Positions 6,652-52,872 of a DNA stretch of 64,000 nucleotides are shown here, in pieces. A model generated the notes under the pieces. It was not told where the DNA came from, did not search any database, and saw only the letters and a program-made list of their open reading frames with translations. Origin of the DNA: Devosia lacusdianchii (lineage in GTDB: Bacteria > Pseudomonadota > Alphaproteobacteria > Rhizobiales > Devosiaceae); NCBI RefSeq assembly GCF_022429625.1, contig NZ_CP092483.1, positions 310,001-374,000 of the forward strand, read 5' to 3'. Positions within the stretch are counted from its first letter, which is position 1. Each line of letters begins with the position of its first letter. A program made the position numbers and the translations under genes.

Positions 6652-8556
6652 ATGAACCAGCGACATTCCTGGGGCGAACGCCTGCGCTATGAGTTCGACA
6701 AATCCATGTCGGCCGGGCCGATCGCGCTGATCGGCTGGTTGGCGGTCCTGTCGCTGATCGTGATCATTTTCGCCGGTGCGGTGATTGCGCTGTTGCGGAT
6801 CACCCCGGAGGGTGGGGAGGCACTCGGCTTCGTCGAGGCCATGTGGGCCTCGCTGATGCGCACGCTCGATGCCGGGACCATGGGCGGCGATGCCGGTTGG
6901 GCCTTCCGCATTGTCATGCTGGCAGTGACCATTGGCGGCATCTTCATCGTCTCGACGCTGATCGGCGTGCTCTCGTCCGGCATCGAAGCCAAGCTCGATG
7001 AGCTGCGCAAGGGGCGCAGCACAGTGCTGGAAGAAGACCACACCATCATCCTCAACTGGAGTCCGTCCATTTTCGACATCATCGCTGAACTGGTGGTGGC
7101 CAACAAAAGCCGGCGTCGCCCGCGCATCGTGGTCATGGCCGACCGTGACAAGGTGGCGATGGAAGACGAAATTGCCGCCAAGGTGCGCCAACTGGGCAAT
7201 ACCCGCGTTATTTGCCGCAGCGGCGACCCGACCGACCTCTACGATCTCTCCCTGGTCTCGCCACAGCAGGCGCGTTCCATCATCGTGCTATCGCCCGAGC
7301 ATGAGGGCGGCCCGGCGACCGACGCCGACAGCCAGGTGATCAAGACCATCCTCGCGCTGGTCAACGATCCGCGCCGCCGCGCCGCGCCCTATCGCATTGC
7401 CGCCGAGATCCGTGACGCGGCCAGCGCCGAGGTCGCCCGCGTGGTCGGCGGCGCCGAGGCGCAACTGGTGTTGGCCGACGATCTCATCGCCCGCATCGTC
7501 GTTCATTCGAGCCGCCAGTCAGGTCTCTCGGCGGTCTATTCCGAGCTGCTGGATTTCGACGGCTGCGAAATCTATACCACCGCGCAACCCGGCCTCACGG
7601 GCAACACCTTCGGCGACGCCCTGATGGCCTATGAAAGCTCGACGCTGATCGGCCTGGTCTCGCCAGACGGGCAGGTAGTCCTCAACCCGCCGATGGAGAC
7701 CCTGATCGAGGAGGGCTGCAAAGCCATCATCATCGCCGAGGACGACGCGGCCATCCGCATCGTCACCGCGGGCATCAGCATGGACCTGGACGCGATCAGC
7801 GCGCCGCGGCCGCGCAGCCCGACGCCCGAGCGCGTCCTGCTGCTCGGCTGGAACCGCCGCGCGCCGATCATCGCCTACGAGCTCAGCCGCTATGTCGCCC
7901 CCGGCTCGGTGCTGACCATCGCCGCCGACACCCCCGATCTCGACGCCGCCGTGGCTGGCCTCGCCATCGCCAGCAGCAATCTGACGGTGGAATATGGCCG
8001 CATCGACACCACCAGCCGCAGCGATCTCGAAGCGCTCGACATCCCCGCCTATGACCATGTGCTGGTGCTTGGCTATTCCGACCTTCTCGGCGCCCAGCCC
8101 ACCGACACCCGCACGCTGGTGACCCTGCTGCATCTGCGTAAGATCGCCGAAGCTGCTGGCGTGCATGTCAAGGTGGTCAGCGAGATGGTGGATGTCCGCA
8201 ATCGCGAACTGGCCGAGGTCACGCGCGCCGACGATTTCGTCGTCAGCAACAAGCTGGTCAGCCTGATGCTGGCCCAGGCCTCGGAGAATGAGAACCTCGC
8301 AGCCATCTTCGAGGACCTGCTCGACGAGGAAGGCTCGGAAATCTACATGCGCCCCACCGAGGACTATGTGATCCCCGGCGTGCCGGTCAATTTCTATACG
8401 GTAACCGAGGCCGCGCGTGCCCGTGGCGAAGTCGCCATCGGTTATCACCGCCTCCGCGGGCCCGACGGCCTCAACGGCATCGTCGTCAATCCATCCAAAA
8501 CCGCAATCATCACCTACGGCGTCGGCGACCGGCTGATCGTGCTGGCGCGGGACTAG
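6652..8556 (+). CDS. CASTOR/POLLUX-type ion channel with RCK-like domains
   Basis: A 634-residue protein with two N-terminal membrane segments (about residues 23-50 and 80-110). Between them is a pore-like stretch containing LDAGTMGGD, which lines up with the ADAGNH filter of plant CASTOR/POLLUX (DMI1) channels. The rest is cytoplasmic: two Rossmann-like RCK/TrkA-N regions (TIILNWSPSIFDII... and RVLLLGWNRRAPIIAYEL), the conserved mid-region with SVIVLSPE-type sequence, and the family's typical C-terminal half. Plant homologues are nuclear-envelope cation channels needed for symbiosis. The bacterial members are generally uncharacterised and are presumed to conduct K+ or Ca2+ under ligand control. 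ATG 6652 was taken. It stands as a single transcription unit. Confidence 0.88.
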   Translation: MNQRHSWGERLRYEFDKSMSAGPIALIGWLAVLSLIVIIFAGAVIALLRITPEGGEALGFVEAMWASLMRTLDAGTMGGDAGWAFRIVMLAVTIGGIFIVSTLIGVLSSGIEAKLDELRKGRSTVLEEDHTIILNWSPSIFDIIAELVVANKSRRRPRIVVMADRDKVAMEDEIAAKVRQLGNTRVICRSGDPTDLYDLSLVSPQQARSIIVLSPEHEGGPATDADSQVIKTILALVNDPRRRAAPYRIAAEIRDAASAEVARVVGGAEAQLVLADDLIARIVVHSSRQSGLSAVYSELLDFDGCEIYTTAQPGLTGNTFGDALMAYESSTLIGLVSPDGQVVLNPPMETLIEEGCKAIIIAEDDAAIRIVTAGISMDLDAISAPRPRSPTPERVLLLGWNRRAPIIAYELSRYVAPGSVLTIAADTPDLDAAVAGLAIASSNLTVEYGRIDTTSRSDLEALDIPAYDHVLVLGYSDLLGAQPTDTRTLVTLLHLRKIAEAAGVHVKVVSEMVDVRNRELAEVTRADDFVVSNKLVSLMLAQASENENLAAIFEDLLDEEGSEIYMRPTEDYVIPGVPVNFYTVTEAARARGEVAIGYHRLRGPDGLNGIVVNPSKTAIITYGVGDRLIVLARD

Positions 8557-48836: not shown

Positions 48837-49120
48837 GATTGTAGTCCTTGGTTTTGGAACGCCGGCCAAATGGCAGGGCGTCGCTCCCAGCCAGCAACAT
48901 GCCGGTCGGGTCTAACACGCTCGCAAAAATCAGGAAGAGGCCAAAATCCGGCGAACCGGGGTTATGACAGCTATCTTGAGCTGAAACGTATGGCCAACAT
49001 ATAGACTGTGATCGCGGTGATATCAAGGCAGGGTGCAAAACCGGCCAGGGAACCGCCCGGCGCAACCGTCCGTTGACGCAGCACGGCCCTGCCAGACGCA
49101 GGTCTCAAGCAAAGCGTCAG

Positions 49121-49966
49121 ATGAACCAGAGTCCATTCCTCATACGTCCGACAGCGGGCGAATTGCAGGCACCCGTCCGCGCCGATGCGCTGTGGTCCGT
49201 CGAGCGCGGTGCCTCGCCGATCGTCGGCACGGCGATCCACAACGGTCATGGCCTGCGTGACGAGGTAGCAGCCGCCATGGCGCTCGACGACGCGCAACGC
49301 CTGCGCGAGGAAGACCCATTCACCGAATATGTCATCCGCGACGTGCCCAATCGTGTCGTCTTCCACCGCTCGCGTTTCGAGATCGACCTCAACCGCGCCA
49401 GCGACGGCGCCGTCTATCTGCGCCCCGATCAGGCCTGGGGCCTCGACGTCTGGGCAACAAATCCGGTCGAGGACTTGGTAGGTCGATCGCTGGCCATTCA
49501 CGATGCCTATTACGCCATGCTGGGCCAGATGCTCGCAGGTCTGGCCGCGGAGCACGGGCGCTTCGTGCTGCTCGACATACACAGCTACAATCACCGCCGC
49601 GCCGGTCCTGACGCCCAGCCAACGCCTGAGGCGGAGGCGCCGCAGGTCAATATCGGTACATTCTCAATGGATCGGGCGCGCTGGGCGCATGTGCTCGACC
49701 CGTTCATGGAGAGCCTGCGCGGTTTTTCCTTCCGCGGACGATACATGGATGTGCGCGAGAACGTCGCCTTCGAGGGGCGCGGCGAGCAGACGCGCTTCGT
49801 GCACGCCAATTTTCCCAAGACCGGCTGCGCCATCGCCATCGAGTTCAAGAAGTTCTTTATGGACGAGTGGACAGGCGAGCCGGATGTGGAGGCGTTGACG
49901 GCCATGCGTTCCATGATCACTGCGTCGCTGCCGGTGCTCCTCACGAGCCTTGAGGGTGGCGCATGA
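49121..49966 (+). CDS. N-formylglutamate amidohydrolase-family protein
   Basis: A 281-residue protein of the HutG-type family with VGTAIHNGHGLRDEV (His ligand region), DVPNRVVFHRSRFEIDLNR and LLDIHSYNHRRAG, the metal-binding and catalytic segments of N-formylglutamate deformylases. It also has FPKTGCAIAIEFKKFFMDEWTG. No hut genes are nearby. Instead it is joined by an ATGA overlap to a QEGLA-motif metallopeptidase, followed by an ATP-grasp ligase. In that setting it may hydrolyse an N-acyl- or peptidyl-glutamate rather than take part in histidine degradation. ATG 49121 is chosen on family alignment; no strong ribosome site is visible. Confidence 0.85.
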   Translation: MNQSPFLIRPTAGELQAPVRADALWSVERGASPIVGTAIHNGHGLRDEVAAAMALDDAQRLREEDPFTEYVIRDVPNRVVFHRSRFEIDLNRASDGAVYLRPDQAWGLDVWATNPVEDLVGRSLAIHDAYYAMLGQMLAGLAAEHGRFVLLDIHSYNHRRAGPDAQPTPEAEAPQVNIGTFSMDRARWAHVLDPFMESLRGFSFRGRYMDVRENVAFEGRGEQTRFVHANFPKTGCAIAIEFKKFFMDEWTGEPDVEALTAMRSMITASLPVLLTSLEGGA

Positions 49967-51816
49967 GCGCGCCTGACGCCAAGCTGCTCGAGGAGTTCGC
50001 CGCCGCCTTGGCGGCGGGGGAGCCGATCCGCCGTGATTTCGGCAGCGGCGAGCGCCTGCATATCGATCGGCCATTGCCCTTCCTCGTCGTGCATGTCGGG
50101 CGCCGCAAGGAGCCGGCGGCGCGAGACGTCGTGAGTGCCAATTCGTCGTATCTGCTGGCCCGCAATCTGGGAACCGCAGCGGCCATCGTGAAGCTGGTGG
50201 CCGAAGCCATGACCGAGCGCTTCGGCGCCTTCGTCATGCTCGATATCGGCGAACTGGAGCGCGACCGGCTCGCCAGCGACGCGGCCTATCTGCCACCCTT
50301 CGAGATGAGCGTCTCGGCCAGCGATGACAGCGCCGCGCAGACTGCTCGGCTGGCTTTCGTGGCCGCCGCCGAGCAGGCACAGACCAAGTTTCGCGTGCCG
50401 CAGATCGCCCGCCCCAAAGTGGCCGACGATCCGGCTGCCAAACTGGCGCGGCTCCTGCCCAAGCTGCCATCGCTGACACTACGCTTCGCGCCGATCTACC
50501 GGGTGCCGGAATCGGACGCCGTCTATCCCGAACTGCGTGAACGGCTGGTCGCTAACATCGTCGATGCAGGCCTGCAGGCGGTAGCGGCCTTTGCCGGTTC
50601 GACCAAGAGTCTGGCGGTCTCAACGCATCGCGCCCTCGGCCGCAAGGCCTTCGTCGATGCCGTCAGTCGTGCCGACCGCGCCATCGACGACGTGGCGCAA
50701 TCCTTCGATTTCCTGCTCGCTGTGACCCCGATCAACGCCCAGGCGGCATGGGAAGAGTTCAAGGCGACGAGTTTCGAGAAGCCGCCACGCTTTCTCTATC
50801 GGCCGCTGACCATCGACGTGGCGCGTCAGAAGCGGGCGCTGTTTTCGGTGGCGATCGAGCATTTCGAGGACCCTGTGCTGACCACGCTCTACCGCGAGAA
50901 GCAGCAGGAACTCGATCTGCAGCTGTCGCTGCTGGCGGCGCGCGAGATGCCGCGCTTCGTCGAGATCGGGCGCGCGCTCTATGGTCCGGTCGAGCCGAGC
51001 CTGCTTGCCATGGCCCGGTCTATCCTCGATGAGACCAAGCCCGGTCGCGGCAAGCGGACCGGCGAGGGCGACGATGCGGATGTGCGCTTCGTCGAGCGTC
51101 GCGCCAAGGCGATGATCAAGGCGTATGCGGGCAGCGATGACGGCTTTTCGGCCAGCGTCGAACTGCGCGACGACCTGCCATCGGGCATGATGGTCTCGGG
51201 CGGGCGGCTGCTGATCGCGCGCAGTACCACCATGGCGCGCGGCCGGGTCGAGGCGCTGCTCAGCCACGAGGTGGGCGTGCATCTGCTGACCTATTTCAAT
51301 GGTTCGGCGCAGGGCCTGCGGCTGTTTCGCTCAGGCCTTGCCGGCTATGAGGGAGTGCAGGAAGGACTGGCGGTGCTGGCCGAATACCTGGTCGGCGGCA
51401 TGACGGTTGGCCGGCTTCGGCTGATAGCGGCGCGTGTCGTCGCCTGCTCCGACATGCTTGGTGGGGCGAGCTTCCCCGATTGCTACCGCATGCTGGTTCG
51501 TGAGCTGGGCTTTGCCGAAAGCACAGCGTTCAACCTCGCCCTGCGCGTCTATCGCGGCGGCGGTCTCGCCAAGGACGCGGTCTATCTGCGCGGGCTACTC
51601 GAGGTGCTGGCACACCTGCAGGCCGGCGGTTCGCTCGATCCATTCTGGATGGGCAAGATCGCCGCCGCTCATTTCGGCGTCATGCAGGAACTGAGCACGC
51701 GCGGCCTGCTGAAGGCGCCGCGGCTCATGCCGCAATTTCTGTCCCACGATCAGGCAGCGGAGCGTCTCAAGGCCGCCCGCGCCGGCATTTCACCCGTCCA
51801 GATGACGGAAAACTAG
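49963..51816 (+). CDS. QEGLA-motif metallopeptidase (DUF1704/MATCAP-like)
   Basis: A 617-residue protein. The zincin core has His435-Glu436 and His440 (SHEVGVHLLTYFNG) and Glu467 in the name-giving QEGLAVLAEYL. This matches the DUF1704 family, whose eukaryotic members (MATCAP) are carboxypeptidases removing C-terminal Tyr from tubulin. Bacterial members are often labelled flavohemoglobin-expression-modulating, without a known reaction. The N-terminal roughly 250 residues are an additional helical region. It overlaps the upstream amidohydrolase by 4 nt and is 9 nt from the ligase gene. The most economical inference is a carboxypeptidase trimming a Glu-type residue or tag; the substrate is unknown. 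Confidence 0.87.
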   Translation: MSAPDAKLLEEFAAALAAGEPIRRDFGSGERLHIDRPLPFLVVHVGRRKEPAARDVVSANSSYLLARNLGTAAAIVKLVAEAMTERFGAFVMLDIGELERDRLASDAAYLPPFEMSVSASDDSAAQTARLAFVAAAEQAQTKFRVPQIARPKVADDPAAKLARLLPKLPSLTLRFAPIYRVPESDAVYPELRERLVANIVDAGLQAVAAFAGSTKSLAVSTHRALGRKAFVDAVSRADRAIDDVAQSFDFLLAVTPINAQAAWEEFKATSFEKPPRFLYRPLTIDVARQKRALFSVAIEHFEDPVLTTLYREKQQELDLQLSLLAAREMPRFVEIGRALYGPVEPSLLAMARSILDETKPGRGKRTGEGDDADVRFVERRAKAMIKAYAGSDDGFSASVELRDDLPSGMMVSGGRLLIARSTTMARGRVEALLSHEVGVHLLTYFNGSAQGLRLFRSGLAGYEGVQEGLAVLAEYLVGGMTVGRLRLIAARVVACSDMLGGASFPDCYRMLVRELGFAESTAFNLALRVYRGGGLAKDAVYLRGLLEVLAHLQAGGSLDPFWMGKIAAAHFGVMQELSTRGLLKAPRLMPQFLSHDQAAERLKAARAGISPVQMTEN

Positions 51817-51825
51817 GAAAATCCC

Positions 51826-52872
51826 ATGCGTATCGGGTTCTTCGTCAACGCCATTGAAAACGAAACTGCCAATTACTCCACCACGCACCTGGCGCTGGCG
51901 GCGCTCATGCGGGGTCACGACATCTGCTACCTGACGCCAGGCGACTTCGTGCTGCGGCCCGATGATAGCCTGGCGGTGCGAGCGCTGACGCTGCCGGCGT
52001 CCAACTACAAGAAGGCCGAGACCCTGTTCAAGGATTTGCAGGGCGACGCAACGACGGTCGAAACCATGAATGTTACCGAGATCGATGTGTTGCTGTTGCG
52101 CAATGATCCGTCCGAGGACGCGGCCGATCGGCCCTGGGCGGCCCATGTCGGCGCGGTATTCGGGCGTCTGGCCGCCGAGCGCGGCGTCATCGTGCTCAAC
52201 GACCCCGATGGGTTGGCCCAGGCACAGAACAAGCTCTATTTCCAGGATTTTCCGGCCTCGGTGCGGCCGGAAACCCTGATCTCCAAGAGCATCGAGGAAA
52301 TCCAGGGCTTCATCGAGAGCCAGAAGAAAGGCGTGATCCTCAAACCCCTCCAGGGCTCGGGCGGCAAGAACGTGTTCAAGATCGGCTCGCCCAAGGATTC
52401 GAACCTCAACCAGATCTTCGAGGCGGTGAGCGGCGAGGGCTATCTGATCGCTCAGGGCTTCATGCCTGAGGCAGCGGAGGGCGATGTGCGTTTCTTCCTG
52501 ATGAATGGGCTGCCGCTACAGCGCGACGGCAAGTACGCCGCATTCCGTCGCGCGCCGGCCAAGGGCGAAATCCGCTCCAACATTCATGCCGGTGGCAGCC
52601 CCGAGGCGATCGAAGTGACACCGACCATGCTCAAGATCGCCGAGACGGTGCGGCCCAAGCTCATCCAGGATGGCATGTTCCTCGTCGGGCTCGATATCGT
52701 CGGCGACAAGCTGCTCGAGATCAACGTGTTTACCCCCGGCGGGCTCAACAATCTCTCGCAGATGTACAAGACCGATTTCACGCAAACGGTCATCGAGGCG
52801 CTGGAGCAGAAGATTGTCATCCGCGACGGCTATCTGGGCCGCATCAGCAATCGGCAACTGGCGACGCTCTAG
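51826..52872 (+). CDS. GshB-like ATP-grasp ligase
   Basis: A 348-residue ATP-grasp enzyme with an N-terminal substrate domain (MRIGFFVNAIENETANYST). The ATP-binding domain has VILKPLQGSGGKNVFKI, the YLIAQGFMPEAAEGDVRFF segment and metal-site LVGLDIVGDKLLEINVFTPGGL. This is the pattern of prokaryotic glutathione synthetase. Two things argue for a different substrate: NVFTPGGL replaces the usual NVTSPT, and the partners are an amidohydrolase and a peptidase. It starts 9 nt after the peptidase stop, with GGAAA nearby, and closes a three-gene unit. True GshB is the alternative. Confidence 0.87.
   Translation: MRIGFFVNAIENETANYSTTHLALAALMRGHDICYLTPGDFVLRPDDSLAVRALTLPASNYKKAETLFKDLQGDATTVETMNVTEIDVLLLRNDPSEDAADRPWAAHVGAVFGRLAAERGVIVLNDPDGLAQAQNKLYFQDFPASVRPETLISKSIEEIQGFIESQKKGVILKPLQGSGGKNVFKIGSPKDSNLNQIFEAVSGEGYLIAQGFMPEAAEGDVRFFLMNGLPLQRDGKYAAFRRAPAKGEIRSNIHAGGSPEAIEVTPTMLKIAETVRPKLIQDGMFLVGLDIVGDKLLEINVFTPGGLNNLSQMYKTDFTQTVIEALEQKIVIRDGYLGRISNRQLATL

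Follow-up and report, generated by a model that had tools for sequence, protein, structure and literature searches.

A candidate stress-linked unit of two hydrolases and a glutathione synthetase-derived ligase in Devosia and its relatives

In a 64,000-nucleotide stretch of the Devosia lacusdianchii genome (contig NZ_CP092483.1, positions 310,001 to 374,000; hereafter the window, whose numbering we use), we examined three consecutive forward-strand genes that we call FG, QE and GS. Our favored reading, to which we give a probability of about 45%, is that they form a module, induced by stress, for the synthesis and trimming of a short glutamyl peptide. FG (49121-49966) begins at an ATG within a longer open reading frame (ORF) that opens with TTG, and encodes a 281-residue zinc amidohydrolase of the N-formylglutamate amidohydrolase (FGase) family. 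QE (49963-51816, ATG start) encodes a 617-residue QEGLA/MATCAP metallopeptidase with a degenerate FGase domain at its N-terminus. GS (51826-52872, ATG start) encodes a 348-residue ATP-grasp ligase of the GshB-derived PRK12458 subfamily. This arrangement at 49121-52872 had been proposed in a sequence-only reading of the window, and re-reading the sequence bears out both the 4-nt overlap of FG with QE and the 9-nt gap between QE and GS. The source genome is a single contig of 4.36 Mb.

The unit is conserved in relatives, a check that the sequence-only reading had called for. Scanning genomes with QE alone as the query, a search limited to close relatives, we obtained 68 loci, every one in a Rhizobiales-type record (a metagenome-assembled genome among them is labelled Rhodobacteraceae). 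FG, QE and GS were present in order at 68/68 of these loci; at L037 and L068 the matches are fragmented and the reading frame appears broken. Across 69 loci, the window included, pairwise protein distances of the three correlate at 0.84 to 0.90, as joint inheritance would predict, but this does not set it apart from species descent. In a survey of 136 Devosiaceae genomes (QE at E <= 1e-40, GS at E <= 1e-100, FG at E <= 1e-60), QE was detected in 25 and GS in the same 25, with a hypergeometric probability of 7.5e-28 that ignores shared ancestry. FG was found in 26 genomes, these 25 and G341, and the three genes are adjacent and in order in all 25 that have QE and GS. The unit is patchy in the family yet nearly all-or-none. 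Because FG and GS adjoin QE at every one of the 68 loci, and because the QE and GS genome sets are identical, we conclude that the association is not due to chance.

No fourth conserved gene was found at the 68 loci. The best other cluster occurred at only 14 of them, and we reject a four-gene operon. In this search, ORF picking placed GS in one cluster at 55 loci and FG at 49; a gene shared by most of the loci should thus have been detected, while one present in few need not have been. The lack of a fourth partner points to a substrate that is diffusible or universal.

To our knowledge, the name of the bacterial QEGLA family reflects only an indirect effect on flavohemoglobin expression. QE scores 370 bits against TIGR02421 (cut-off 338.65) and 311 bits against PF08014 (MATCAP). 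Its MATCAP-type zincin domain spans residues 251-617 (50713-51813) and contains the HExxxH metal-binding motif at residues 435-440 (51265-51282) and Glu467 of the QEGLA motif (51361-51363), the probable third metal ligand. The motif and Glu467 had been described as intact, and H435, E436, H440 and Glu467 are indeed invariant in an alignment of 61 sequences (A1). QE thus has the HExxxH, the downstream Glu and the zincin fold that characterize MATCAP/TMCP proteins, and human members of this group cut residues off protein C-termini (PMC10499314). QE differs from the tubulin carboxypeptidase MATCAP/TMCP1 in being bacterial, in its degenerate FGase N-domain and in having a ligase partner, and its own activity is predicted from sequence. 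The FGase domain of QE (residues 27-214; 50041-50604) is dead, having lost both the metal His of its DIHSYN motif and the Glu of EFKKFF.

In Photobacterium and one further genome, FGase and QEGLA form one fused protein with a PRK12458-type ligase gene adjacent, and Pfam confirmed the FGase-MATCAP fusion in both proteins tested. GS adjoins such a fusion at L116, L150 and L151. Among the best 120 of 807 matches, 117 are FGase-MATCAP fusions and 115 retain the DxHxYN His. Since a single fused protein occurs in many bacteria, we propose that FG and QE function together as a single enzyme. In Photobacterium, genes for an HdfR-type LysR regulator and MaoP (DUF413) adjoin the unit (L150:2628-7107, by family search; L151:4510-9004, by eye), and on a Vibrio plasmid the same two genes, by annotation, adjoin QEGLA alone (L146:2802-6260).

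FG itself scores 91 bits against PF05013 (cut-off 28.9). Its AlphaFold2 model (pLDDT 90.7) has the FGase 2q7s as top match in the PDB, with a TM-score of 0.69. Residues H40 (49238-49240), H154 (49580-49582) and E241 (49841-49843) are invariant in a second alignment (A2), and we put them forward as metal ligands and base, on the strength of the M14-like fold. FG shares family and fold with the N-formylglutamate amidohydrolase HutG, but it falls far below the HutG equivalog cut-off (TIGR02017, 28.4 bits against 278.75), and two other FGases in the source genome outscore it. By Pfam, the seven ORFs around the unit encode a Sel1-repeat protein, a zinc-dehydrogenase-like protein, a family-less 98-residue protein, a cold-shock protein, a LacI regulator, a Gfo/Idh/MocA oxidoreductase and ThuA. 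No hut or gsh gene was found among them, as the sequence-only reading had said. A role for FG in histidine utilization is ruled out by the HutG score, the higher-scoring FGases elsewhere and the lack of a hut gene among these seven neighbors.

GS is clearly related to glutathione synthetase. It scores 466 bits against NF009110/PRK12458 (cut-off 408), aligns with 1gsa at E 1.6e-37, shares the fold of GshB and retains the GshB-type N-domain (PF02951), the known substrate of which is a dipeptide. The window GS is nonetheless below the cut-offs of both glutathione synthase equivalogs, TIGR01380 (199.5 against 299 bits) and PRK05246 (216.8 against 272 bits). We compared 30 GS sequences, including window, solo and Photobacterium types, with 20 canonical GshB sequences (18 from among the top profile matches, that of the source genome and that of E. 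coli). Fifty-one columns are at least 90% conserved in both sets; the residue is the same in GS and GshB at 42 and differs at nine. Among those conserved to at least 90% and identical are K136, K173, D220, R222, R242, D290, E298 and N300, which we take to bind ATP, Mg or substrate. One of the changes lies in a loop. At E. coli position 288 there is a clean switch from Thr in 20/20 GshB to Gly in 30/30 GS, and at position 285 the Thr of GshB becomes Phe (27) or Leu (3). In the window this loop reads NVFTPGG (residues 300-306; 52723-52743) in place of the GshB NVTSPT, directly after a conserved and presumably Mg-binding Asn, and the SPT-type loop of GshB was not present in any of the 30 GS compared. 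In related ATP-grasp ligases, the loop at the corresponding place contacts the incoming amino acid.

These features bear on whether GS simply makes glutathione. The sequence-only reading had raised the possibility that GS is the only glutathione synthetase of the organism, and this is ruled out by a separate canonical gshB (PF02955, 249 bits) and gshA (PF04107, 279 bits) in the source genome. A canonical GshB and GshA likewise accompany GS in G243, and it is to QEGLA, not gshA, that the GS gene is linked. Alternatively, GS could be a stress-induced second synthetase of glutathione or a homologue, with FG and QE turning over or remodelling glutathione-type peptides. The 42 of 51 shared columns and the stress induction described below would fit. 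The Photobacterium GS passes PRK05246 (291.7 against 272 bits), though it misses TIGR01380 (244 against 299), and three Photobacterium/G243-type ligases hold the GshB residue at three of the nine differing columns. In G006 (99% complete), GS is the only GshB-like match and gshA is present, a combination compatible with ordinary glutathione synthesis; this pattern recurs in G109 and G173, but those are 82% and 65% complete. On the other side stand the canonical pair in two genomes, the failed equivalog cut-offs of the window GS and the uniform loss of Thr288. G014, of the same genus as G006 and also 99% complete, has a gshA-type gene (PF04107) with neither GS nor any GshB-like match; in that genome, then, gshA does not depend on GS. 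We also know of no step for an FGase in glutathione metabolism. On balance we find the glutathione explanation doubtful.

The evidence for stress induction comes from the upstream region and from a published data set. A putative promoter for sigma-EcfG, the general stress response sigma factor, lies at 49049-49074 on the forward strand (GGAAC-N17-CGTT), 46 bases upstream of the start of FG. It conforms to the pattern GGAAC-N16/17-CGTT and matches the R. etli EcfG1 motif, reported as GGAAC-N16-CGTT (PMC3892343), and NepR is encoded in the source genome. This motif ahead of FG is new here and is conserved in Devosiaceae, where it was found in the sense orientation in 24/24 other regions and in the antisense orientation in 0/24. 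These regions cover every FG genome except G359, which has a partial FG match, and include the orphan FG of G341, which also has the motif. Spacers differ between most genomes and are identical in some. Several of these genomes apparently coincide with records of the 68-locus set, and the motif counts are therefore not independent. Over the 69 loci including the window, the sense motif occurs at 15, where locus density would predict 1.3, and the antisense motif at 12. A general EcfG promoter across Rhizobiales is rejected, as the motif is in sense at only 14/68 other loci (7/7 Devosia among them) and on the opposite strand at 12/68. Eleven of the 12 antisense motifs are nearly the same Agrobacterium-group sequence. 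At L030, L033, L038, L039, L041, L046, L051, L052, L054, L062 and L066, the antisense motif upstream of FG points at a divergent gene.

Low salt is reported to induce A0J47_RS17020, named 'GshB', 38.4-fold and the QEGLA gene A0J47_RS17025 27.5-fold in Photobacterium damselae (PMC10308900). A P. damselae QEGLA protein, P0142, is a fusion of 660 residues. From this and the consecutive locus tags in the published values, we infer that the two induced genes are GS and the fusion. On the speculative reading set out further below, such strong induction suggests that the unit may adjust the level of a peptide with osmotic or redox activity. The induction also bears on the idea of a degradative cassette, in which FG and QE would scavenge N-acyl-glutamyl peptides and GS would be a minor salvage ligase. 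Two fused hydrolases are what such a cassette could look like, and at L124:5956-8908 an AstE/AspA-type deacylase gene (PF24827) overlaps the QEGLA gene, taking the place of FGase. However, GS is a strictly linked partner and, of the two P. damselae genes, the one with the higher reported induction (PMC10308900), and the cluster search of the 68 loci found no conserved transporter or catabolic gene nearby. We regard a purely degradative role as very improbable.

To see the unit beyond close relatives we turned to 299 Pseudomonadota genomes, where TIGR02421 matches occur at 34 places in 29 genomes. Of the 33 places outside the source genome we examined 32 with flanks of up to 6 kb, omitting a contig-edge fragment. 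GS adjoins QE at eight of these 32 loci, and FG is near or fused at five of the eight (1.4 kb away at L123, 2 kb at L127). At two of the remaining three a contig end cuts the FG side; the third is L128. Starting from the ligase, PRK12458 matches above the cut-off occur at ten places in eight genomes (461-488 bits; the next match scores 241). QEGLA adjoins nine of these, and the tenth begins at base 48 of its contig.

Together, this leads us back to a module that makes and unmakes a small glutamyl peptide. GS, a descendant of glutathione synthetase, would keep the ATP and Mg chemistry with an altered loop where the incoming amino acid is held in relatives, and would extend a glutamyl acceptor by an amino acid at its C-terminus. 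QE would take off C-terminal residues, like its human relatives, and FG would hydrolyze the remaining N-acyl or glutamyl amide. The dead FGase domain of the alphaproteobacterial QE is probably a dock for FG or for the substrate. The reaction directions, the small-peptide substrate and the docking are conjectural. The sequence-only reading had seen a write, erase and recycle set for a small peptide or glutamate tag; the unit and its families stand, and of the possible substrates we favor a small glutamyl peptide over a tag on proteins.

Under a protein-tag model, one or more proteins would receive a residue or short peptide at the C-terminus from GS, QE would remove it and FG would recycle the released glutamyl piece. 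Trimming of protein C-termini by the MATCAP relatives is in keeping with this (PMC10499314), and there are precedents in which an ATP-grasp ligase is coupled to peptidases, as in the unit. The ligase RimK, which is paired with the protease RimB, attaches glutamate to a ribosomal protein, and the P. aeruginosa Rlo operon (RloA-RloB-RloC, a retropepsin/seven-transmembrane/ATP-grasp set) is reported to govern hypo-osmotic tolerance (PMC12239564). RloA/RloB/RloC-like genes follow GS at four of the six GS loci of genus g100: L126 and L168, called by Pfam and NCBIfam with the RloA/RloB models below their cut-offs, and L125 and L132, called by eye. Of the other two, L128 has Rlo remnants and L127 none. 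A RimK gene is divergent to a short QEGLA gene at L115:3043-5617. As a rule, RimK-QEGLA linkage was discarded, since it was seen only at L115 and the same-genus L109 has no GS-profile match in the stretch examined. The unit differs from the RimK-RimB and Rlo systems in its GshB-type ligase, in a MATCAP zincin instead of a retropepsin and in an extra FGase, and there is no seven-transmembrane protein within FG-QE-GS itself. No carrier or target gene travelled with the unit in the cluster search of the 68 loci, its patchy occurrence (25/136 Devosiaceae) is unlike a housekeeping modification, and the N-domain that GS keeps is of the dipeptide-binding GshB type. We therefore judge a protein tag unlikely.

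Several observations weigh against the small-peptide module that we prefer, in addition to the Photobacterium and G006 ligases and to the sparse sense and opposite-strand motifs among the 68 loci. At 24/32 QEGLA loci, mostly with shorter QEGLA ORFs, no GS was found within ~6 kb, and FG was not found near the QE-GS pair of L128. The FG of G341 is orphaned (L152:3346-4305), with no QE or GS in a 10-kb stretch of unbroken contig. On a Vibrio plasmid, the FGase-QEGLA fusion (L146:4269-6260) carries Tyr at the His position of DxHxYN and lacks an adjacent GS. On three Ensifer plasmids (L142, L143 and L144), GS was detected by profile search with neither FG nor QE within 8 kb; the same search recovers all three genes at L145 and L148. 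Finally, coexpression of a ligase with two hydrolases would lead to futile cycling unless the enzymes target different bonds or work at different times. Each solo Ensifer gene lies at position 8001 of its locus. In L142, CsbD, PRC-barrel and ferritin-like genes are nearby, in L143 LigD, and an EcfG-type motif is upstream of those in L143 and L144, not L142.

We speculate, tentatively and with the odds against it, that one stress system extends from Devosia to Photobacterium, in which a glutathione synthetase descendant reversibly extends a glutamyl molecule and a two-headed FGase-carboxypeptidase reverses the step; in alphaproteobacteria the hydrolase would have split, the leftover FGase domain serving as a dead dock for the live one. 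For the bacterial QEGLA family, the results provide a set of conserved partners, together with a probable regulon and chemistry that can be tested. The label 'glutathione synthetase' for the PRK12458 form may be a misnomer, and a top low-salt gene of P. damselae, published as glutathione synthesis, is numbered beside a QEGLA gene in that report (PMC10308900). If the product were identified, it might turn out to be a novel stress peptide, or else a bacterial parallel to the editing of tubulin tails.

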